Shown: positions 11,954-20,384 of the stretch, piece by piece
How positions within the stretch are numbered: position 1 is the first letter of the stretch
Layout of the letters: each line of letters begins with the position of its first letter
Assembly (NCBI GenBank): GCA_016192455.1
Contig: JACPUC010000003.1
Coordinates: 62,001-126,000 of the forward strand
Length of the DNA stretch: 64,000 nucleotides
Source of the DNA: Candidatus Tectimicrobiota bacterium
GTDB lineage: Bacteria; JACPUC01
Direction of reading: 5' to 3'
Notes under the pieces: generated by a model
The model's input: the letters and a program-made list of their open reading frames with translations, nothing else
Databases searched by the model: none
Told to the model about the DNA's origin: nothing
Program-made: the position numbers and the translations under genes

Positions 11954-13279
11954 TTACGCGCCGTACGCCTCCGCCAGCAGGGTGATGGGATGGACGACGC
12001 GGCAGGTCAGGCCGGCGCGCGCCACCCCCAGGCGAAGCTGCAGGAGGCAGCCGGGGTTGCCGCTGGCGATGATGTCCGGCGCGGCGGCGGCGATGTGCGC
12101 CATCTTGCGGTCGAGGATTTGCAGGGAGAGGTCGGCGTGGGCGAGGGTGTAGATGCCGGCGCTGCCGCAGCAGGCGTCGGCCTCCGGGAAATCGACCAGC
12201 TCAACTCCCTGGATCAGGCGCAACAGCTCGCGCGGCTGGCGGCTGATCTGCTGCCCGTGCAGGAGGTGGCAGGGGTCGTCATAGGCGACGCGCGCCGCGA
12301 CGGCCTTCGGCGGCCGCTTCAGCTCGAGCGCCGCCAGGAACTCGCTCACGTCGCGCACCTTCGCCGCGAAGGCGCGGGCGCGCTCGGCGTAGGCCGCATC
12401 CGCCGCCAGGAGCCGGCCGTAGCTCTTCAGGTGCGCGCCGCAGCCGGCGGCGTTGACGAGGACGGCGTCGCAGGCCAGCTCCCCGAGCTGGTCGATGACG
12501 CGCCGCGCCATGGCGCGGGCCTCCTCGCCCCGCCCCGCATGGGCGTGCAGGGCGCCGCAGCAGCTCTGCGGGCGCGGCACCAGGACGTCGCAGCCGTTGG
12601 CCCGCAGGACGCCCACCGTCGCCTCGTGGACGTCATCGAAAAGCACGTCCATGACGCAGCCGGTCAGCAGCGCCACCGTGGCCCGGCGCTCATGGCGGGC
12701 CCGATACACCGGCTTCGCCCGCAGGCTGAAGGAGCCCCCCGCCGTGGGGGGGAGCATGGCGGCGAAGTTGCGCTGTTCCGGCGACAGGAGCGCCCGCGCC
12801 GGCCCCAGGAGGAGCGGCCGCGCCCAGCGCAGCAGCGCAAAGGCGGCGCGCAGCAGCGCCGGCCTGGCAATCAGGTGGCGCAGCAGCAGTTCGCCCTGGC
12901 TCCCCTGCTGGTAGCGCTGCGGCGCCGCCCGGTAGAGGCGTTCGCGCGCCGACTCCATCAGCGCCCCGAACCGCACCCCGGAAGGGCAGGCCGTCTCGCA
13001 GGCGCGGCAGTTGAGGCAGAGGTCGAGGTGCTTGATGTAGTTGTCGGTCAAGCCGATGCGCCCCTCGGCCTGGGCGCGGATGAGGTAGATGCGGCCGCGC
13101 GGCGAGTCGGTCTCGCGGCCCAGGGCACGGTACGTCGGGCAGTGGTCGAGGCAGAGACCGCAGTGGATGCACGGCAACGCCAGGTCGATGCCGGATCCGT
13201 TCGCCTCGCCGGGCGCCGTGGTCGAGGCGGCGGCGTCGGGGAGATCGGCGCGCTCGCCGCCGGGAGTGAGGGGACCCAC
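11954..13279 (-). CDS. glcF: glycolate oxidase iron-sulfur subunit GlcF
   Basis: A 441-residue protein with two ferredoxin-type [4Fe-4S] motifs near the N-terminus (CIHCGLCLDHCP and CLNCRACETACP) and two Cys-rich CCG domains (CCGALHAHAG about residue 245, CCGSAGIYTL about residue 375). This is the layout of GlcF and related (S)-2-hydroxyacid dehydrogenase Fe-S subunits, which pass electrons from the FAD subunits to the quinone pool. It begins with GTG at 13279, one base after the glcE stop, so translation is probably coupled. Third gene of the glcD-glcE-glcF operon. D-lactate or another 2-hydroxyacid is an alternative substrate. Confidence 0.9.
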   Translation of the reverse strand: MGPLTPGGERADLPDAAASTTAPGEANGSGIDLALPCIHCGLCLDHCPTYRALGRETDSPRGRIYLIRAQAEGRIGLTDNYIKHLDLCLNCRACETACPSGVRFGALMESARERLYRAAPQRYQQGSQGELLLRHLIARPALLRAAFALLRWARPLLLGPARALLSPEQRNFAAMLPPTAGGSFSLRAKPVYRARHERRATVALLTGCVMDVLFDDVHEATVGVLRANGCDVLVPRPQSCCGALHAHAGRGEEARAMARRVIDQLGELACDAVLVNAAGCGAHLKSYGRLLAADAAYAERARAFAAKVRDVSEFLAALELKRPPKAVAARVAYDDPCHLLHGQQISRQPRELLRLIQGVELVDFPEADACCGSAGIYTLAHADLSLQILDRKMAHIAAAAPDIIASGNPGCLLQLRLGVARAGLTCRVVHPITLLAEAYGA

Positions 13280-13280
13280 G

Positions 13281-14645
13281 CTAGATGCCTCCTGCGAATC
13301 GGCCGGGGTTCATCACCCCGTTCGGGTCGTACTGCTGCTTCAGGGCGCGCATGATCGGCAGCGCCCCCCCCACTTCGCCCCAGGTCTCGCAGTGCTGCTT
13401 GAACGCCGGCTCGGCGCGCTCCAGGATGAGGCAGCCCCCCTGCGCGACGGCCCGCTGGCGCGCCCGCCGCACGCTCGCCGCGGCTTCCTCCAGGCGCTCC
13501 GCTTCGTAGAACGCCGCAAGCCGCGCCTCGCCGTTGCCGGCCTGGGCGTAGATGTAAGGGGTGAAACCGCCGGCGCGCAGATCATCCTGCACCGCCTGGA
13601 GGAAGCCGGCGAGGCCGGAGACCGGCAGGCTGGCGGCGGCGAGGAAGAACGGGCGATCGAAGGAGGCCAGCACCTTCGGGAAATCCTGGATGATGTTCCA
13701 GATCATCGTGGTGTCGAGGCCGTCCAGGACGATCCACTCGCTGCTCAGGCCGCCGGCGTGCCGCCGCGTGATCTCGTCCAGGCTGCGCTGCAGCTCGCTC
13801 TGCGTCCCCTCCAGGCCGATGAGCAGGGCGCACGTCTCCCCGGCGGGCTCGAGGTTGGCGCGCTCGGCCAGCAGGCTGAGGGCCGGCTGGTTGAGAAGGT
13901 CGAGCGCCGTCGGCACGAGGCAGGACCCGCGGATACGCCGCAGGGCCTCGCAGGCGCCGTCGAGCTCCCGCGCCATGAGGAGGAGGACGCTCTCCTTCAG
14001 CGGCAGCGGCTGCAGCTTGCACGTGCACTCGACAAGCACGCCCAACGTCCCGAAGGAGCCGATGTAGAGCTTCATGAGGTCGTAGCCGGTGACGTTTTTG
14101 ACGACCCGGCCGCCGGCGCGCGCCACCGTGCCGTCCGGCAGCACGATCGTCGTCCCCAGGACGAGGTCGCGCATGCCGCCGTGGCCGTAGCGCCGCGAGC
14201 CGACGCTGGCCGCCGCCATGATGCCGCCGATGGTGGCCTCCTCGACGAACGGCGGGTCGATGGGGAGCCATTGGCGGCTGGGGCGCAGCATCTCCTGCAG
14301 CCTCTTCAGGCGCAGCCCGGCCTGCATCGTGGCGGTGAGGTCCCCCGGCACGTGGTCGACCAGCCGGTCGAGGCGCTCCAGCCCAAGGACGAGGCCGGGA
14401 CGAGCCGGCACGTTGCCCGTCGCCAGCTTGCTGCCGCCGCCGCGCGGCCAGACGGCGACCCCGCGCGCGTTCGCCCAGCGCAGCACCGCCGCCACCTCTT
14501 CGACCGTGGCGGGGAAGACGGCCCCCAACGCCGCCACGCCGTCGACGGCGTAACCGTCGGCGCCAGTCGGGGCTACGGAGGAGAATGCCTCGGCGGGCAG
14601 CTCGCAGCGCAAGGTTGAGAGGTCCAGGGTCGTCGGGTCGGTCAT
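13281..14645 (-). CDS. glcE: glycolate oxidase FAD-binding subunit GlcE
   Basis: A 454-residue FAD_binding_4 (PCMH-type) protein. The FAD-binding half includes PRGGGSKLATGN, the ATIGGIMAAASVGSRRYGHG stretch and VVKNVTGYDLMKLYIGSFGT; the C-terminal half is the FAD-oxidase C domain. It is longer than E. coli GlcE (about 350) but has GlcE-like spacing. ATG 14645 is chosen; a GTG nine bases upstream is possible and there is no strong ribosome-binding site. It lies between glcD (30-bp gap) and glcF (1-bp gap). With those subunits it forms a membrane-associated oxidase converting glycolate to glyoxylate. Confidence 0.9.
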   Translation of the reverse strand: MTDPTTLDLSTLRCELPAEAFSSVAPTGADGYAVDGVAALGAVFPATVEEVAAVLRWANARGVAVWPRGGGSKLATGNVPARPGLVLGLERLDRLVDHVPGDLTATMQAGLRLKRLQEMLRPSRQWLPIDPPFVEEATIGGIMAAASVGSRRYGHGGMRDLVLGTTIVLPDGTVARAGGRVVKNVTGYDLMKLYIGSFGTLGVLVECTCKLQPLPLKESVLLLMARELDGACEALRRIRGSCLVPTALDLLNQPALSLLAERANLEPAGETCALLIGLEGTQSELQRSLDEITRRHAGGLSSEWIVLDGLDTTMIWNIIQDFPKVLASFDRPFFLAAASLPVSGLAGFLQAVQDDLRAGGFTPYIYAQAGNGEARLAAFYEAERLEEAAASVRRARQRAVAQGGCLILERAEPAFKQHCETWGEVGGALPIMRALKQQYDPNGVMNPGRFAGGI

Positions 14646-14675
14646 GTTCGTCACGCACGAGGGAGCGGGGGCTGC

Positions 14676-16109
14676 TCAGGCGGAAACGTTCGGCGCCTTG
14701 GCGAAGGGCCTGGTCTCGACACAGCGGCCGGGCGTGGGAAAGACCTTGCCGGGGTTGCACAGCCCCTCGGGGTTGAAGACGCTGCGCACCCGCTGCATCA
14801 GCTCGAGGTCTTGGTCAGTAAAGAACCAGGGCATCCACTCGCGCTTCTCCAGGCCGATGCCGTGCTCGCCGCTGAGCGAGCCGCCGAGATCGACGCAGAC
14901 CCGCAAAATCTCCTCCCCCGCCTTCAGGGCGCGCTCCTGATCGCCGGGCTTGCGGTCATCGAAGAGCACGAGAGGGTGCAGGTTGCCGTCGCCGGCGTGG
15001 AAGACGTTGGCGATGCCCAGGCCGTGCTTCTCGACAATGGCGTAGATGCGCCGCAGCGCCTCCGGCAGCTTGGTGCGCGGGATCACGCCGTCGTGGGTGT
15101 AGAAGCTGCGCGTCACCCGGCCCAGCGCCCCGAAGGCCTCCTTGCGCGCCTTCCAGAGCAGGGCGCGCTCGGCGTCGTCCTTGGCGACGCGCACCTCCAG
15201 GCTGCCGTTCTGCCGGCAGATGGCCTCGATGCGCTCAGCCAGCTCGTCGAGGCCGTCGCGGATGCCGTCGAGCTCGATGAGGAGCACCGCCCCCGCAGCC
15301 GCCGGGAAGCCGAGGTGCAGGTACGCTTCCACCGCCCGCAGCACGAAGTGGTCGATCATCTCCAGGGCCGCCGGGATGATGCCGGCGCCGATGATCTCCG
15401 TCACCGTGGAGCTGGCGGCATCGATGCTCGGGAAGACCGCGGCCAGCGTCTTGTACGCCTCGGGCAGGCGGGTCAGGCGGACGATGATCTTGGTGATGAT
15501 GCCGAAGGTCCCCTCCGAGCCGACGAGGAGGCCGGTGAGGTCGTAGCCGGGGCCGCGTCCCGCGCGGCTGCCGCAGGTGATCGTCTCGCCGTTCGGCAGC
15601 ACCATTTCGAGCCCCAGCACGTGGTTGGTGGTGACCCCGTACTTCAGCGTGTGCGGGCCGCCGGAGTTCTCGGCCGCGTTGCCGCCCAGGGTGCAGGCCG
15701 CCTGGCTGGAGGGGTCCGGCGCGTAGTAGAGCCCCATCCCCTGCACCGCCTGGCTGAGGCGCAGGTTCACCAGGCCCGGCTCGACGACCGCCACCTGGTT
15801 GACCTCGTCGATCTCGAGCACGCGGTTCATCCGCGCCATCTCGATGAGCACGCCCCCCTCCACCGGCAGGGCGCCGCCGCTCAGGCCGGTGCCGGCGCCG
15901 CGCGCCAGGAAGGGGACGCGCAGGCGGTGGCAGAGGCGCACCACCTCGGCGATCTGCTCGGCCGTCGTCGGAAAGACCACCGCCGTCGGCAGGGCGCGCT
16001 CAATCGTGTGGCCGTCGCACTCGTAGACCAGCAGCTCGTCCGCCGCCGAGGTCACCGCCTCGACCCCGAGCAGCTTTTCCAACGACTGGATCAGGCTTGC
16101 GGATTCCAT
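14676..16109 (-). CDS. glcD: glycolate oxidase FAD-linked subunit GlcD
   Basis: A 477-residue FAD-linked 2-hydroxyacid dehydrogenase, the expected length for GlcD. FAD-binding marks are FLARGAGTGLSGGALP and CTLGGNAAENSGGPHTLKYG; the catalytic C-terminal domain has FHAGDGNLHPL and the hallmark GEHGIGLEKR. It oxidises glycolate (or D-lactate or another 2-hydroxyacid) and hands electrons to GlcF. First gene of the operon. Together with dihydrolipoamide dehydrogenase and GrdA elsewhere in the window it hints at C2/glycine metabolism, but that link is inference only. Confidence 0.93.
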   Translation of the reverse strand: MESASLIQSLEKLLGVEAVTSAADELLVYECDGHTIERALPTAVVFPTTAEQIAEVVRLCHRLRVPFLARGAGTGLSGGALPVEGGVLIEMARMNRVLEIDEVNQVAVVEPGLVNLRLSQAVQGMGLYYAPDPSSQAACTLGGNAAENSGGPHTLKYGVTTNHVLGLEMVLPNGETITCGSRAGRGPGYDLTGLLVGSEGTFGIITKIIVRLTRLPEAYKTLAAVFPSIDAASSTVTEIIGAGIIPAALEMIDHFVLRAVEAYLHLGFPAAAGAVLLIELDGIRDGLDELAERIEAICRQNGSLEVRVAKDDAERALLWKARKEAFGALGRVTRSFYTHDGVIPRTKLPEALRRIYAIVEKHGLGIANVFHAGDGNLHPLVLFDDRKPGDQERALKAGEEILRVCVDLGGSLSGEHGIGLEKREWMPWFFTDQDLELMQRVRSVFNPEGLCNPGKVFPTPGRCVETRPFAKAPNVSA

Positions 16110-16373: not shown

Positions 16374-17000
16374 ATGCAACCGCGCTCCGACTACTACGAC
16401 ATGCCGCCGGACAAGTGGATCAGCTTCAAGTATTGCGACCTCACGAAGCTGATCAAAATCCGCTTCAGCCGCCAGATCAGGAAGCGCTACGCGAATTTCG
16501 ACGCCGCCGTGCGCCTCGGCGAGACGGCCCCCGAGGTGGACCTGCGGGGCGACGACGGCAGGCGCTACCGGCTCTCCGAGCGCGTCGGCAAGAAGTACGT
16601 CGTCATGAGCTTCGGCGCCATCACGTGACCCCCCTACCGCGGGCAGGTGCCCGCCCTGGAGGAGATCGCGCGCGCGTACGACGACGTGGACGTCTGGCAC
16701 ATGTACGTGCGCGAGCCGCACCCGCAGGAGCGCAAGTTCAAGAAGTACTGGCCCCACAAGGACTACGAGCACCGCGTGGCGTACGCCAAGGAGATGCGCG
16801 AAGTGCTGCACATCGCCTCCCCCATCGTCATCGACGGCATGGACGAGAAGGTGCACCACGCCTACGGCAACATGCCGAACGCGGTCTACGTCATCGACAA
16901 GGCGGGCAAGGTCGTCTACAAGGCCAACTGGACCGACTCGCCGGTAATCGATCAGGTGCTCGCCCAGCTCCATGCGGAAGAGACCCCCGTGGCTCGCTAG
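16374..17000 (+). CDS. deiodinase-like / redoxin selenoprotein (in-frame TGA = Sec85)
   Basis: Two open frames, 16374-16625 and 16629-17000, lie in the same reading frame and are separated by a single TGA at 16626-16628. Read through, they give one 208-residue thioredoxin-fold protein whose active site is GAIT-U-PPYRGQVPALEEI, the deiodinase-like TUPPF pattern. Further on it has VREPHPQERK, close to the conserved EAHP of iodothyronine deiodinases and their bacterial relatives. A GC stem-loop suited as a bacterial SECIS follows the TGA. The ATG has AGGGGGG eight bases upstream. The family uses Sec or Cys for thiol peroxidase or redox chemistry; no signal peptide is seen. The TAG stop is the insertion site of MITE copy C. 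Confidence 0.85.
16639..16654 (+). promoter_or_regulatory. candidate bacterial SECIS hairpin
   Basis: GCGGGC (16639-16644), loop AGGT (16645-16648) and GCCCGC (16649-16654) form a perfect 6-bp GC stem with a four-base loop. The loop begins 16 nt after the TGA, at the short end of the distance known for bacterial SECIS elements. It contains the G/GGU character recognised by SelB in E. coli fdhF. Confidence 0.7.
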
Positions 17001-17289: not shown

Positions 17290-19149
17290 TCAGCCCCCCT
17301 CCGCCGGCTCCAGGTAGCCTTTCCACCAGTAGTAGAGAATCCCCGCCGCCTCATGGGCCAGGGCGCCGAGCTGCTGCGCGCTGATGCCGCGGGTGTGCTC
17401 GTAGAAGCTGCTCGTGCGCACCGGCGCCGGCAGGAACCGCACCCTCGGCGCCTGCCGCTGGAAGGTCAGCATCGCCCGGCGCATGTGGTACGACGCGGAG
17501 ACGAGGAGCACCGAGCTCCAGCCGTGGGACGCGGCGAGTTCGCTGACGTAGCGCGCGTACTGGAACGTGTTGACGCCGCGCTCCTCGAGGAGGATCGCCT
17601 TCTCCGGCACCCCCAGCGACATCAGGATGCGGCGCAGGTCGCGCGTCTCGCGTTCCACGTAGCGGAAGCCGCTGACGACCACGACCGTGCCGGAGAGGCC
17701 GCGCGCATAGAGCTCGCCGGCGGCGTGGGCGCGCTCGAAGGTGCTGGTGCCAGGCCGTCCCGTCTCGCCGACGCCGCCGGCGAGCACGACGATGGCGCTG
17801 CTCGGTTGCGGCGGCGCCGCCATCAGCAAGGGGCCGGCAAGCCGCCAGACGAGGGGCGACTCGAAGATCACCAGGTAGAGGAGGAGCAGCGCCGCCAGCC
17901 CCTGGGCGGTGCGCGCGTAGGTGCGCCGGACCACCTGGCGCATGCGGCGCTGCCAGGTCTTGGCGCGCTCGTGGCGGAGCTGCTCGAGGCGGGCGGAGAT
18001 GAGCACGGAGAGCGCCTCCATGCGCCGCGGCCAGTGGTAGGTCTGGGCGATGGCGCGGCGTCGGCTGCGGCGCTCGGGGGTATCCTGGGCCAGCTCCGCC
18101 GCAATGGCCGCGACGAAGGCGGGCGCATCACCGGCGAGCGACAGGAGGGGGCCGTGCTCGTCGCGGAAGGCGCTGACCTCCGGCAGCGGCGTGGAGACCA
18201 CCGGCAGCCCGAAGGCGAAGTACTCCGGCAGCTTGGCGGGGAAGACGTTGTCGGTATAGGCGCTGCGCGCGTAAGGGATGAGCGCCACGTCGAAGGCGGC
18301 CAGGTACGCCCCCAGCTCGGCGTGCGGGCGCTCGCCCAGGAAGTGCGCGTTCGGCAACCCCGCCAGCGGCCCGGGGTCCGCTTGCAGCGGCCCCACGAAG
18401 ACGAACGACCATTGCGGCGCCTGCCGCGCCGCCGCCGCCAGGAGGGCGAAATCGACGTGCTGGTGGATTCCCCCGACGTAGCCGATGATCGGGCGCGGCA
18501 GGCGCGCCAGCTCCGCCGGGGGCTCGGCGGGACCAGCGAGGTGCTCGAGGTTGACGCCGTAAGAGAGCTGGTAGGTCTCGCCGTTCTCCCGCAGCGAGTC
18601 CCGCGCCAGACTGCGCGAGTTCGTGATGACGAGGTCGGCGGCGCGCAGCATGCGGCGCTCGAAGGACTCGATGCGGCGCGCCTGCGGCGAGCTGCTGCGG
18701 AAATCGTCGGCGCGGTGGTAAAGGAGGAGCTTGCCGTCGAGGCGCCTGGCCAGGTTCAGGGCCAGGGGGGTGGGCAGGAACGACCAGACGATGGGGTTGG
18801 CGAAGCCGAGGGACTTCATCCAGCGGCGCACCACCCGCCAGATAACGGCGCCGTTGATCCAGCGGGCCAGGCGCGAATAGGGGAAGGGCAGCAGGAGAGG
18901 CGACAGGATGTAGAGGTTCTCGGACTCCTGCCGCACGCCGGCGTAGCTGCGCCACCAGTTGCGCAGGCGCTGCTTCAGGCGCGGCAGGTCCGCGAGGCGC
19001 GGGCGGCGCACCCCGGTGTTCTCGATGTAGAGCACCCGGTTCCCGGCCTGGGCCAGGCGGGACATGATCTCCTGCTGCCCCTGCCAGAGAAAGTCCCAGT
19101 CAATGGAGGAGATGCAGACGATATCGTGGTTCTGCACGGTGCTGGTCAT
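17290..19149 (-). CDS. glycosyltransferase group 1 fused to DUF218/YdcF-like domain
   Basis: A 619-residue two-domain protein. Residues 1 to about 415 are a GT-B glycosyltransferase: LLYHRADDFRSSSP, IGYVGGIHQHVDFALLA, and the nucleotide-sugar site with PYARSAYTDNVFPAKLPEYF followed by GLPVVSTPLPE. A single hydrophobic segment (about 428-455) follows. The C-terminal 150 residues are a DUF218 (YdcF/SanA/ElyC-like) domain with SAIVVLAGGVGETGRPG, VVVVSGFR and VSASYHMRRAMLTF. DUF218 proteins act in envelope biogenesis with unknown chemistry. The fusion suggests that both steps work on one surface or lipid-linked glycan. A second glycosyltransferase gene is 68 bp upstream on the same strand. Confidence 0.82.
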   Translation of the reverse strand: MTSTVQNHDIVCISSIDWDFLWQGQQEIMSRLAQAGNRVLYIENTGVRRPRLADLPRLKQRLRNWWRSYAGVRQESENLYILSPLLLPFPYSRLARWINGAVIWRVVRRWMKSLGFANPIVWSFLPTPLALNLARRLDGKLLLYHRADDFRSSSPQARRIESFERRMLRAADLVITNSRSLARDSLRENGETYQLSYGVNLEHLAGPAEPPAELARLPRPIIGYVGGIHQHVDFALLAAAARQAPQWSFVFVGPLQADPGPLAGLPNAHFLGERPHAELGAYLAAFDVALIPYARSAYTDNVFPAKLPEYFAFGLPVVSTPLPEVSAFRDEHGPLLSLAGDAPAFVAAIAAELAQDTPERRSRRRAIAQTYHWPRRMEALSVLISARLEQLRHERAKTWQRRMRQVVRRTYARTAQGLAALLLLYLVIFESPLVWRLAGPLLMAAPPQPSSAIVVLAGGVGETGRPGTSTFERAHAAGELYARGLSGTVVVVSGFRYVERETRDLRRILMSLGVPEKAILLEERGVNTFQYARYVSELAASHGWSSVLLVSASYHMRRAMLTFQRQAPRVRFLPAPVRTSSFYEHTRGISAQQLGALAHEAAGILYYWWKGYLEPAEGG

Positions 19150-19217
19150 CCACCTGAGAAAGCCCGCAGGCCGCAGCGGTAGACGGCCCGGCTGGCTTGC
19201 ACGAGGCCGGCGTTCCT

Positions 19218-20384
19218 TCACGTCCCGGTTGGCGACACTCCCCACACCTCGCACATGCTTGTCGCGCACCTCCGAATGCCGAAGACGCTCGCGGGAAAGG
19301 CTTCCGGGGCGCGATGGCGCTGTGCCGCCAGGTTGGCATCGGCACGGAGCTCTTCAGCCCGCCGCGCCCACGCCTGATCGCTGGCCGTCAAGGACAGCGA
19401 TACCACCCAGGGGAAGTGGGCGGCGATCTCCTGCACTGACGCCAGGTCGCTGGCGAGCACCGGCAGGCCCGCGGCACAGGCCTCCAGCACGACGCCTGGC
19501 AGCCCCTCTGCCAGGGACGGGAAAAGCAGAAGGTCGGCCGCCAGCAGCAGCCGCGCCACGTCGCCGCGCTCACCGGCCATCACCACGAGCCCCTCGAAGC
19601 CGCGCCTCGCGACCTGCTCGCGCAGGCGCACCTCTACCTCGTTGCCACCGCGGCCCACCAAGAGCAGGCGCGCCGCGGGTTGCTGCTTCACCACGTGGCC
19701 GAAGATCGCCAGCACCCGGGCGTGGTTCTTAGCGGGAGCCATGCGGCCGACGTGCAGGTAGAGGGGGCAGTCCGCCTGGAAGCCAAACTCACGGCGCACC
19801 CCCTCATGGTCCGCCGGCTGCGCGAAGGCGCCGCTCTCCACGCCGTCGTAAATAACCCGGCAGCGCGTATCGGAGCGCCAATCCGGTCGCCACGCCGCTG
19901 CCATCGCCGCCTCGCTGACGGCCAGGATGTGGGTGGCGTGGTGCTGAATCCAGTGGCGCAGGAGCCGTCGCCGCAGGACACGCAGAGGACCGTCGACGTG
20001 GTGATCCTGCGTGTCGCGGAGATGGGCGACACGCACCGGCACCCCTTCCCTGCCCGCCAGCCGCAGGAGGTAGCCGGAAAAATAGAACAGATGAGCATGG
20101 ACGACGTCGAAGCGTTGCCGGCGAAGCAGCCGCTGGAACTGCCACGGAAAGGTTGCCCCCATGGGGCATGGGTGGATAATGCCGCCCAGGTTGCGGACGT
20201 CGGCCTCCAGGGACCCGCCACCCCGTCCGTCCGGCATACCGGGAAGGCCGCTAATGGTGCAGACGTGAAACTGCACGCCGGGGCAGGCCAGCTGCCGCAT
20301 CAGCTCCAGGGTGCGCAGCTCGGCACCGGCCCGTTCCAGGCGTCCCAAGACGTGGCAGATCTTCCGTGGCGCTGCCTGCCGCAT
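19218..20384 (-). CDS. glycosyltransferase family 4 type
   Basis: A 388-residue GT-B enzyme. The N-terminal half has the acceptor-side sequence KICHVLGRLERAGAELRTLE and FDVVHAHLFYFSGYLLRLAG. The C-terminal half has LYLHVGRMAPAKNHARVL and the donor-site block LFPSLAEGLPGVVLEACAAG with the EGLP..VLEA Glu motif. It is cytoplasmic and probably transfers a hexose from a nucleotide sugar to a lipid-linked acceptor. It is the upstream partner of the glycosyltransferase-DUF218 fusion, the two likely forming a small surface polysaccharide operon. It is transcribed divergently from the uspA-like gene, with 169 bp between the start codons. Confidence 0.87.
   Translation of the reverse strand: MRQAAPRKICHVLGRLERAGAELRTLELMRQLACPGVQFHVCTISGLPGMPDGRGGGSLEADVRNLGGIIHPCPMGATFPWQFQRLLRRQRFDVVHAHLFYFSGYLLRLAGREGVPVRVAHLRDTQDHHVDGPLRVLRRRLLRHWIQHHATHILAVSEAAMAAAWRPDWRSDTRCRVIYDGVESGAFAQPADHEGVRREFGFQADCPLYLHVGRMAPAKNHARVLAIFGHVVKQQPAARLLLVGRGGNEVEVRLREQVARRGFEGLVVMAGERGDVARLLLAADLLLFPSLAEGLPGVVLEACAAGLPVLASDLASVQEIAAHFPWVVSLSLTASDQAWARRAEELRADANLAAQRHRAPEAFPASVFGIRRCATSMCEVWGVSPTGT

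Follow-up and report, generated by a model that had tools for sequence, protein, structure and literature searches.

The window is a 64,000-nucleotide stretch of DNA that contains a forward-strand gene with an in-frame TGA (Table 1). The frames on both sides of this codon are in phase, and the coordinates and the 208 residues given for them by a sequence-only reading were confirmed on the sequence. The joined translation carries FGAITUPPY and YVREPHP, and the T-U-PPY and REPHP motifs and the position of Sec85 named in that reading are all present. Its 6-bp hairpin with an AGGT loop is also in place, with its first base the 11th after the TGA. The start Met is common to the window gene and its close genes (five in all; M.PRSDYY). 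Two further long ORFs cover the same stretch, one antisense (268 aa) and one in a different frame (259 aa). An open frame alone is little proof because GC-rich DNA leaves long frames open by chance on both strands; homology raises this gene above chance, with a Pfam match, a full-length orthologue that has the same TGA, and dN/dS values. Standard annotation is expected to end the gene at the TGA, and the active half would be lost. Window neighbours include glycolate-oxidase-like genes, DnaJ, and a glycosyltransferase-DUF218 gene. The glycolate-oxidase-like set lies upstream on the opposite strand (11954–16109, −), is GlcD/E/F-like by gene order, and includes two genes with FAD-oxidase Pfam matches. 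A 659-aa ORF (17290–19269, −) joins a glycosyltransferase domain to a DUF218 domain.

Table 1. Features of the deiodinase-like gene and its surroundings in the window.
Feature	Position	Strand	Basis or remark
Selenoprotein gene, 208 codons plus TAG stop	16374–17000	+	T4_deiodinase family, Redoxin fold; TGA almost certainly translated as Sec
In-frame TGA, putative Sec85 codon	16626–16628	+	Kept in relatives at the equivalent codon
N-terminal extension, residues 1–48, clade-typical	16374–16517	+	Alignment of nine clade members and model
Residues 110–117, MYVREPHP	16701–16724	+	Alignment to DIO3; invariant in 9/9 clade members
Purine-rich stretch GGAAAGGGGGGAAA upstream of start codon	16355–16368	+	Putative ribosome-binding site, by eye
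SECIS-like hairpin GCGGGC-AGGU-GCCCGC	16639–16654	+	Synonymous conservation, loop conservation, partial covariation, fold stability

The TGA almost certainly encodes selenocysteine, which would make the gene product a selenoprotein. A full-length orthologue with 70% identity and a TGA at the same codon is present in a contig titled Acidobacteria. Of 396 genomes drawn from the phylum of this contig, 153 gave some match at E ≤ 0.001; full-length orthologues (69.7%–73.1% identity) were present in four, each with the TGA. These four genomes fall in one order, from which 18 genomes were sampled. A second draw of 386 genomes included the host, and the others were related to it only at the domain level, as listed. 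Matches at E ≤ 1e-10 were found in 14 of these genomes, and two besides the host have full-length relatives, with two copies apiece. The phylum of those two genomes (hereafter the second phylum) has matches at E ≤ 1e-25 in 17 of 18 genomes, with the TGA present in 38 of 40 among the matches listed. Of the other two, one is a weaker paralogue; the second is a fragment that matches only up to model position 87, close to the expected Sec position. A pattern-based search placed a TGA at the catalytic codon in 29 of the 29 loci given. The catalytic position is Sec in all nine aligned members of the clade that holds the window protein (described below).

Homologues with Sec at position 85, which the sequence-only reading called for, were therefore found in both the Acidobacteria-titled group and the second phylum. 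The same TGA in independent genomes excludes an assembly error. Values of dN/dS after the TGA are 0.07–0.14 in all three comparisons of the window gene with orthologues (dS saturated), and before the TGA they are about 0.13–0.16 in two of the three, with dS undefined in the third. Purifying selection past the TGA indicates that the part after it is translated.

The host genome (4.46 Mb, 88% complete) has the full Sec machinery that the same reading had proposed to look for. It includes tRNA-Sec (75.5 bits; ARAGORN also calls the locus tRNA-SeC), SelA (596 bits; its gene adjoins selB), SelB (366 bits), and SelD (389 bits), and selD has an in-frame TGA of its own (VAGUAAKLGPGDL). Other genes of this genome end normally at TGA, glcD and selA among them, which rules out genome-wide recoding. 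With the machinery present and TGA ending other genes, TGA would be read as Sec at selected sites only.

Just 3′ of the UGA, the hairpin has a small apical loop with a G, as in bacterial SECIS elements, and synonymous conservation together with some compensatory changes supports this putative assignment. The codons that form it (CGC GGG CAG GTG) show no difference in any of the 36 pairs compared among the five close genes, against a gene-wide baseline of 701 identical pairs among 1,319 same-residue codon pairs. Synonymous sites in codons 36–44 are equally conserved for no evident reason, which counts against the hairpin reading. A synonymous scan of eight genes, covering codons −30 to +24 around the TGA, had its top five-codon windows starting at +2 and +3 (97/112 each versus 457/800), and these overlap the hairpin. 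An AGGT loop is present in 25 of 26 distinct sequences. Numbered from the outside, pairs 4 and 6 are invariant, pair 2 is C-G in 24 and G-U in two, and pair 3 is C-G in 14, G-C in three, G-U in two, and unpaired in seven. Pair 5 is formed in 21 sequences and the outer pair in only seven, and the hairpin is imperfect in the second phylum. Five sequences with a 3′ arm of GGCCGG or GGCTGG fit the register poorly, and four of them fold in a shifted register. In 33 Sec genes the stretch after the TGA folds more stably than stretches elsewhere in the gene (mean z −1.04), and the corresponding stretches in 10 homologues without Sec do not (mean z +0.55). The window's own stretch has a z of −1.63 and a rank of 0.06, a stability that is not extreme. 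Rfam at gathering thresholds gave no match anywhere in the window.

That the TGA is a true stop, with the downstream half a remnant or a separate gene, is extremely improbable. TGA does work as a stop for other genes of the host, but this reading has to contend with the identical TGA in independent genomes, the selection maintained downstream, the complete Sec decoding set, and the conserved hairpin.

The protein matches the Pfam T4_deiodinase family (PF00837) with 54.5 bits against a cut-off of 27, and the Pfam Redoxin and AhpC-TSA models are also above their cut-offs. The NCBIfam deiodinase_rel model (106.9 bits) is under its cut-off of 250, and the ResA model matches weakly (32.7 bits versus a cut-off of 170). 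Every one of the nine members of its clade reaches PF00837 at E ≤ 0.001, and among solved structures mouse DIO3 and DIO2 are nearest in sequence. An AlphaFold2 model (pLDDT 85.5, pTM 0.83; 43-row alignment) is confident apart from residues 1–20, and within residues 1–48 it has a disordered tail followed by two helices at 23–44. Cys21, in this extension, is the sole cysteine of the window protein. The top Foldseek ranks were DIO3 and DIO2. Using VIA, Z was 20.5 for DIO2 (157 aligned, 2.1 Å) and 19.6 for DIO3 (164 aligned, 3.3 Å), with ResA (ResA-type chains, Z 18.9) and peroxiredoxins close after. Together with the tree, the Pfam, structure, and PDB sequence matches bear out the term deiodinase-like at the level of family and fold. 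The likeness to the EAHP motif that had also been pointed out holds in part, as the block is present (REPHP) but reads EPHP where the animal enzymes have EAHP.

Residue roles in DIO3 were taken from the sections of PMC7506546 used here, and positions were mapped via the alignment to DIO3. DIO3 Thr169, Sec170, Tyr197, Glu200, and His202 correspond to Thr84, Sec85, Tyr111, Glu114, and His116, the last three within MYVREPHP, and all five are kept in nine of nine clade members. The position of Ser167 is Ala82 in all nine; the Ser167-to-Ala change costs DIO3 over 90% of its activity, as reported in those sections (PMC7506546). Trp207 is Lys121 in the window protein. The Arg275 position, placed by eye beyond the end of the DIO3 alignment, is Trp186 in 9/9, and Arg275 is described in the same sections as not conserved across DIO types (PMC7506546). 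The window protein shares with DIO2 and DIO3 the fold, T-U-P-P, and the Tyr/Glu/His network. It differs in the three replaced residues, in EPH for EAH, in an N-terminus without a membrane anchor visible by eye, and in its separate tree clade. On these sequence comparisons it is not an animal-type deiodinase.

Peroxiredoxins and ResA/TlpA redoxins share the thioredoxin/redoxin fold with the window protein, and their active-site motifs are PxxxT/SxxC and CxxC, respectively. In contrast to the former, the window protein has FGAITU, with Thr directly before Sec, Ala at −3, and Met at −7; in contrast to the latter, it has U-P-P-Y and no CxxC. The motif is UPPY, UPPF, or UAPY across the clade.

A tree of 61 rows united the window protein and its four acidobacterial-group orthologues in one group (100/99), and these five with four copies from the second phylum in the clade of nine (100/98). 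DIO2 and DIO3, whose rows are fragments on a long branch, cluster instead with six other Sec proteins of the acidobacterial-group set (95/95). These six (L035, L036, L040, L042, L043, and L052) group with the mouse enzymes, several have a hydrophobic N-terminal stretch (by eye), and by sequence they may be closer to the source of animal deiodinases than the window protein is. A further clade (L044, L047, L048, and L049) has Ser replacing Sec (SS-P/S/A-x-F) and is sister to a Sec clade (94/86). Two longer Sec proteins (L038 and L041; 459 and 508 aa) have C-terminal EF-hand-like DxDGDG repeats (by eye). Tandem deiodinase-like pairs occur at four loci: L094 (G533:C1:369295-370383), L039/L062 (G331:C233:4851-6000), L063/L067 (G219:C111:5707-6846), and L064/L068 (G235:C231:1-1045). 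The first copy is without Sec and the second has the TGA, an order that is the same in 4/4 across two groups, and the catalytic residue of the first copy is Ser/Asp or Thr where read (L094, L039, and L064). Each pair may combine a Sec enzyme and an inactive partner.

For this protein the host and the acidobacterial-group genomes share 69.7%–73.1% identity, versus 61.6%–65.1% for RecA. SelB identity is 41% (one genome), and the host genome, which is 88% complete, yielded no rpoB. These values are no more than suggestive of horizontal transfer. A plasmid or phage origin was rejected, with one distant plasmid match (25% identity), no phage match, and no viral-contig relative with this query. Neighbours at the acidobacterial-group loci are a phosphodiesterase, a dioxygenase, and a protein with a sub-threshold DUF3347 match. 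No neighbours are common to the window, these loci, and the second phylum, for which ORFs were compared by eye.

On balance we favour a PF00837 reductase that uses one Sec, with a peroxide-like compound as the likeliest substrate. The hairpin 11 nt downstream of UGA 16626 would recruit the SelB/tRNA-Sec complex, leading to insertion of Sec85. This residue is predicted to start helix 86–101 beside the Thr84/Tyr111/Glu114/His116 network, as in DIO3, and would serve as a selenolate nucleophile. It would attack an electrophilic substrate, the selenium would become oxidised, and an external thiol, thioredoxin or a low-molecular-weight one, would then reduce it. As judged from the alignments, a one-Sec catalytic cycle with an external thiol reductant is probable. 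The domain is Cys-free in most of the clade, which probably leaves Sec85 as the sole redox residue, and 19 of 26 distinct clade members are without Cys in the counted region, which places a resolving Cys outside the general mechanism. A peroxide or similar small oxidant is our tentative guess at the substrate class, with an organohalide or other electrophile less likely. The missing peroxiredoxin motif weakens this guess, and any peroxidase activity would be of another type.

A reductive dehalogenase, working as animal deiodinases do, would have Sec85 attack an aryl or alkyl halide at its halogen and release halide, and a thiol would be the terminal reductant. This reading draws on DIO2 and DIO3 as the closest solved folds and on the retained Sec, Thr, Tyr, Glu, and His of the DIO3 network. 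We consider it unlikely, as Ser167, Trp207, and Arg275 of DIO3 are Ala82, Lys121, and Trp186 here (roles in the sections of PMC7506546 noted above), the window protein is outside the clade that holds DIO2 and DIO3, and neighbours at the compared loci give no hint of a substrate or of halide metabolism. The missing substrate-site residues are evidence against thyroid-hormone-like substrates. A broader proposal is a Sec subfamily with a mostly Cys-free domain, near-universal and multi-copy in one small phylum and sparse elsewhere, that dehalogenates environmental organohalogens by deiodinase chemistry; this is quite unlikely.

The closeness of ResA-type chains to DIO2 and DIO3 in structure, the weak NCBIfam ResA match, and the cis-Pro-like Pro168, retained in nine of nine clade members, would also suit a ResA/TlpA-type thiol-disulfide reductase with its first Cys replaced by Sec. 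This reading is quite unlikely given an active site without a second Cys, a counted region that is Cys-free in most clade members, and an N-terminus without a visible secretion signal (by eye). A resolving role for Cys21 throughout the clade was rejected: the other four aligned members carry Leu or Ile at that position, and most members are Cys-free in the counted region. Within the window's subclade, a two-residue enzyme in which Cys21 on a mobile tail resolves oxidised Sec85 would fit a lone cysteine kept in five of five close genes just past the low-confidence tail, but the Leu or Ile elsewhere in the clade leaves it very unlikely.

A 2005 paper (PMC1088965) described bacterial deiodinase-like selenoproteins with Sec or Cys and a bacterial SECIS and proposed a redox role for them, and such proteins are tabulated in PMC2398784, PMC9312934, and PMC13188914. 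A UxxC motif is listed in the tables of PMC13188914 and PMC9312934, and none is given in the 2008 table (PMC2398784). A literature search on bacterial deiodinases returned the 2005 paper, reviews, and unrelated works, and one on deiodinase-like proteins in Acidobacteria returned nothing relevant. The window protein agrees with the reported proteins in Pfam family, thioredoxin-fold active-site Sec, a SECIS right after the UGA, and a proposed redox role. It differs from the tabulated UxxC in that UPPY or UPPF occurs without a second Cys, and its clade is separate, with an N-terminal extension, GAIT-U, and EPH. UxxC is also missing in 28 of 33 Sec rows; the placement in PF00837 stands because the motif is a table entry and not a strict criterion. 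By sequence, this is a new and distinct branch of an already known bacterial deiodinase-like family, a subfamily and not a family because such selenoproteins have been in print since 2005. It comprises many natural Sec enzymes on a deiodinase chassis without the hormone-binding residues, and in most members Sec is the only redox residue in the domain. The subfamily is a clean system in which to ask what the deiodinase chassis does beyond thyroid-hormone metabolism and which chemistry is older, dehalogenation or peroxide reduction.
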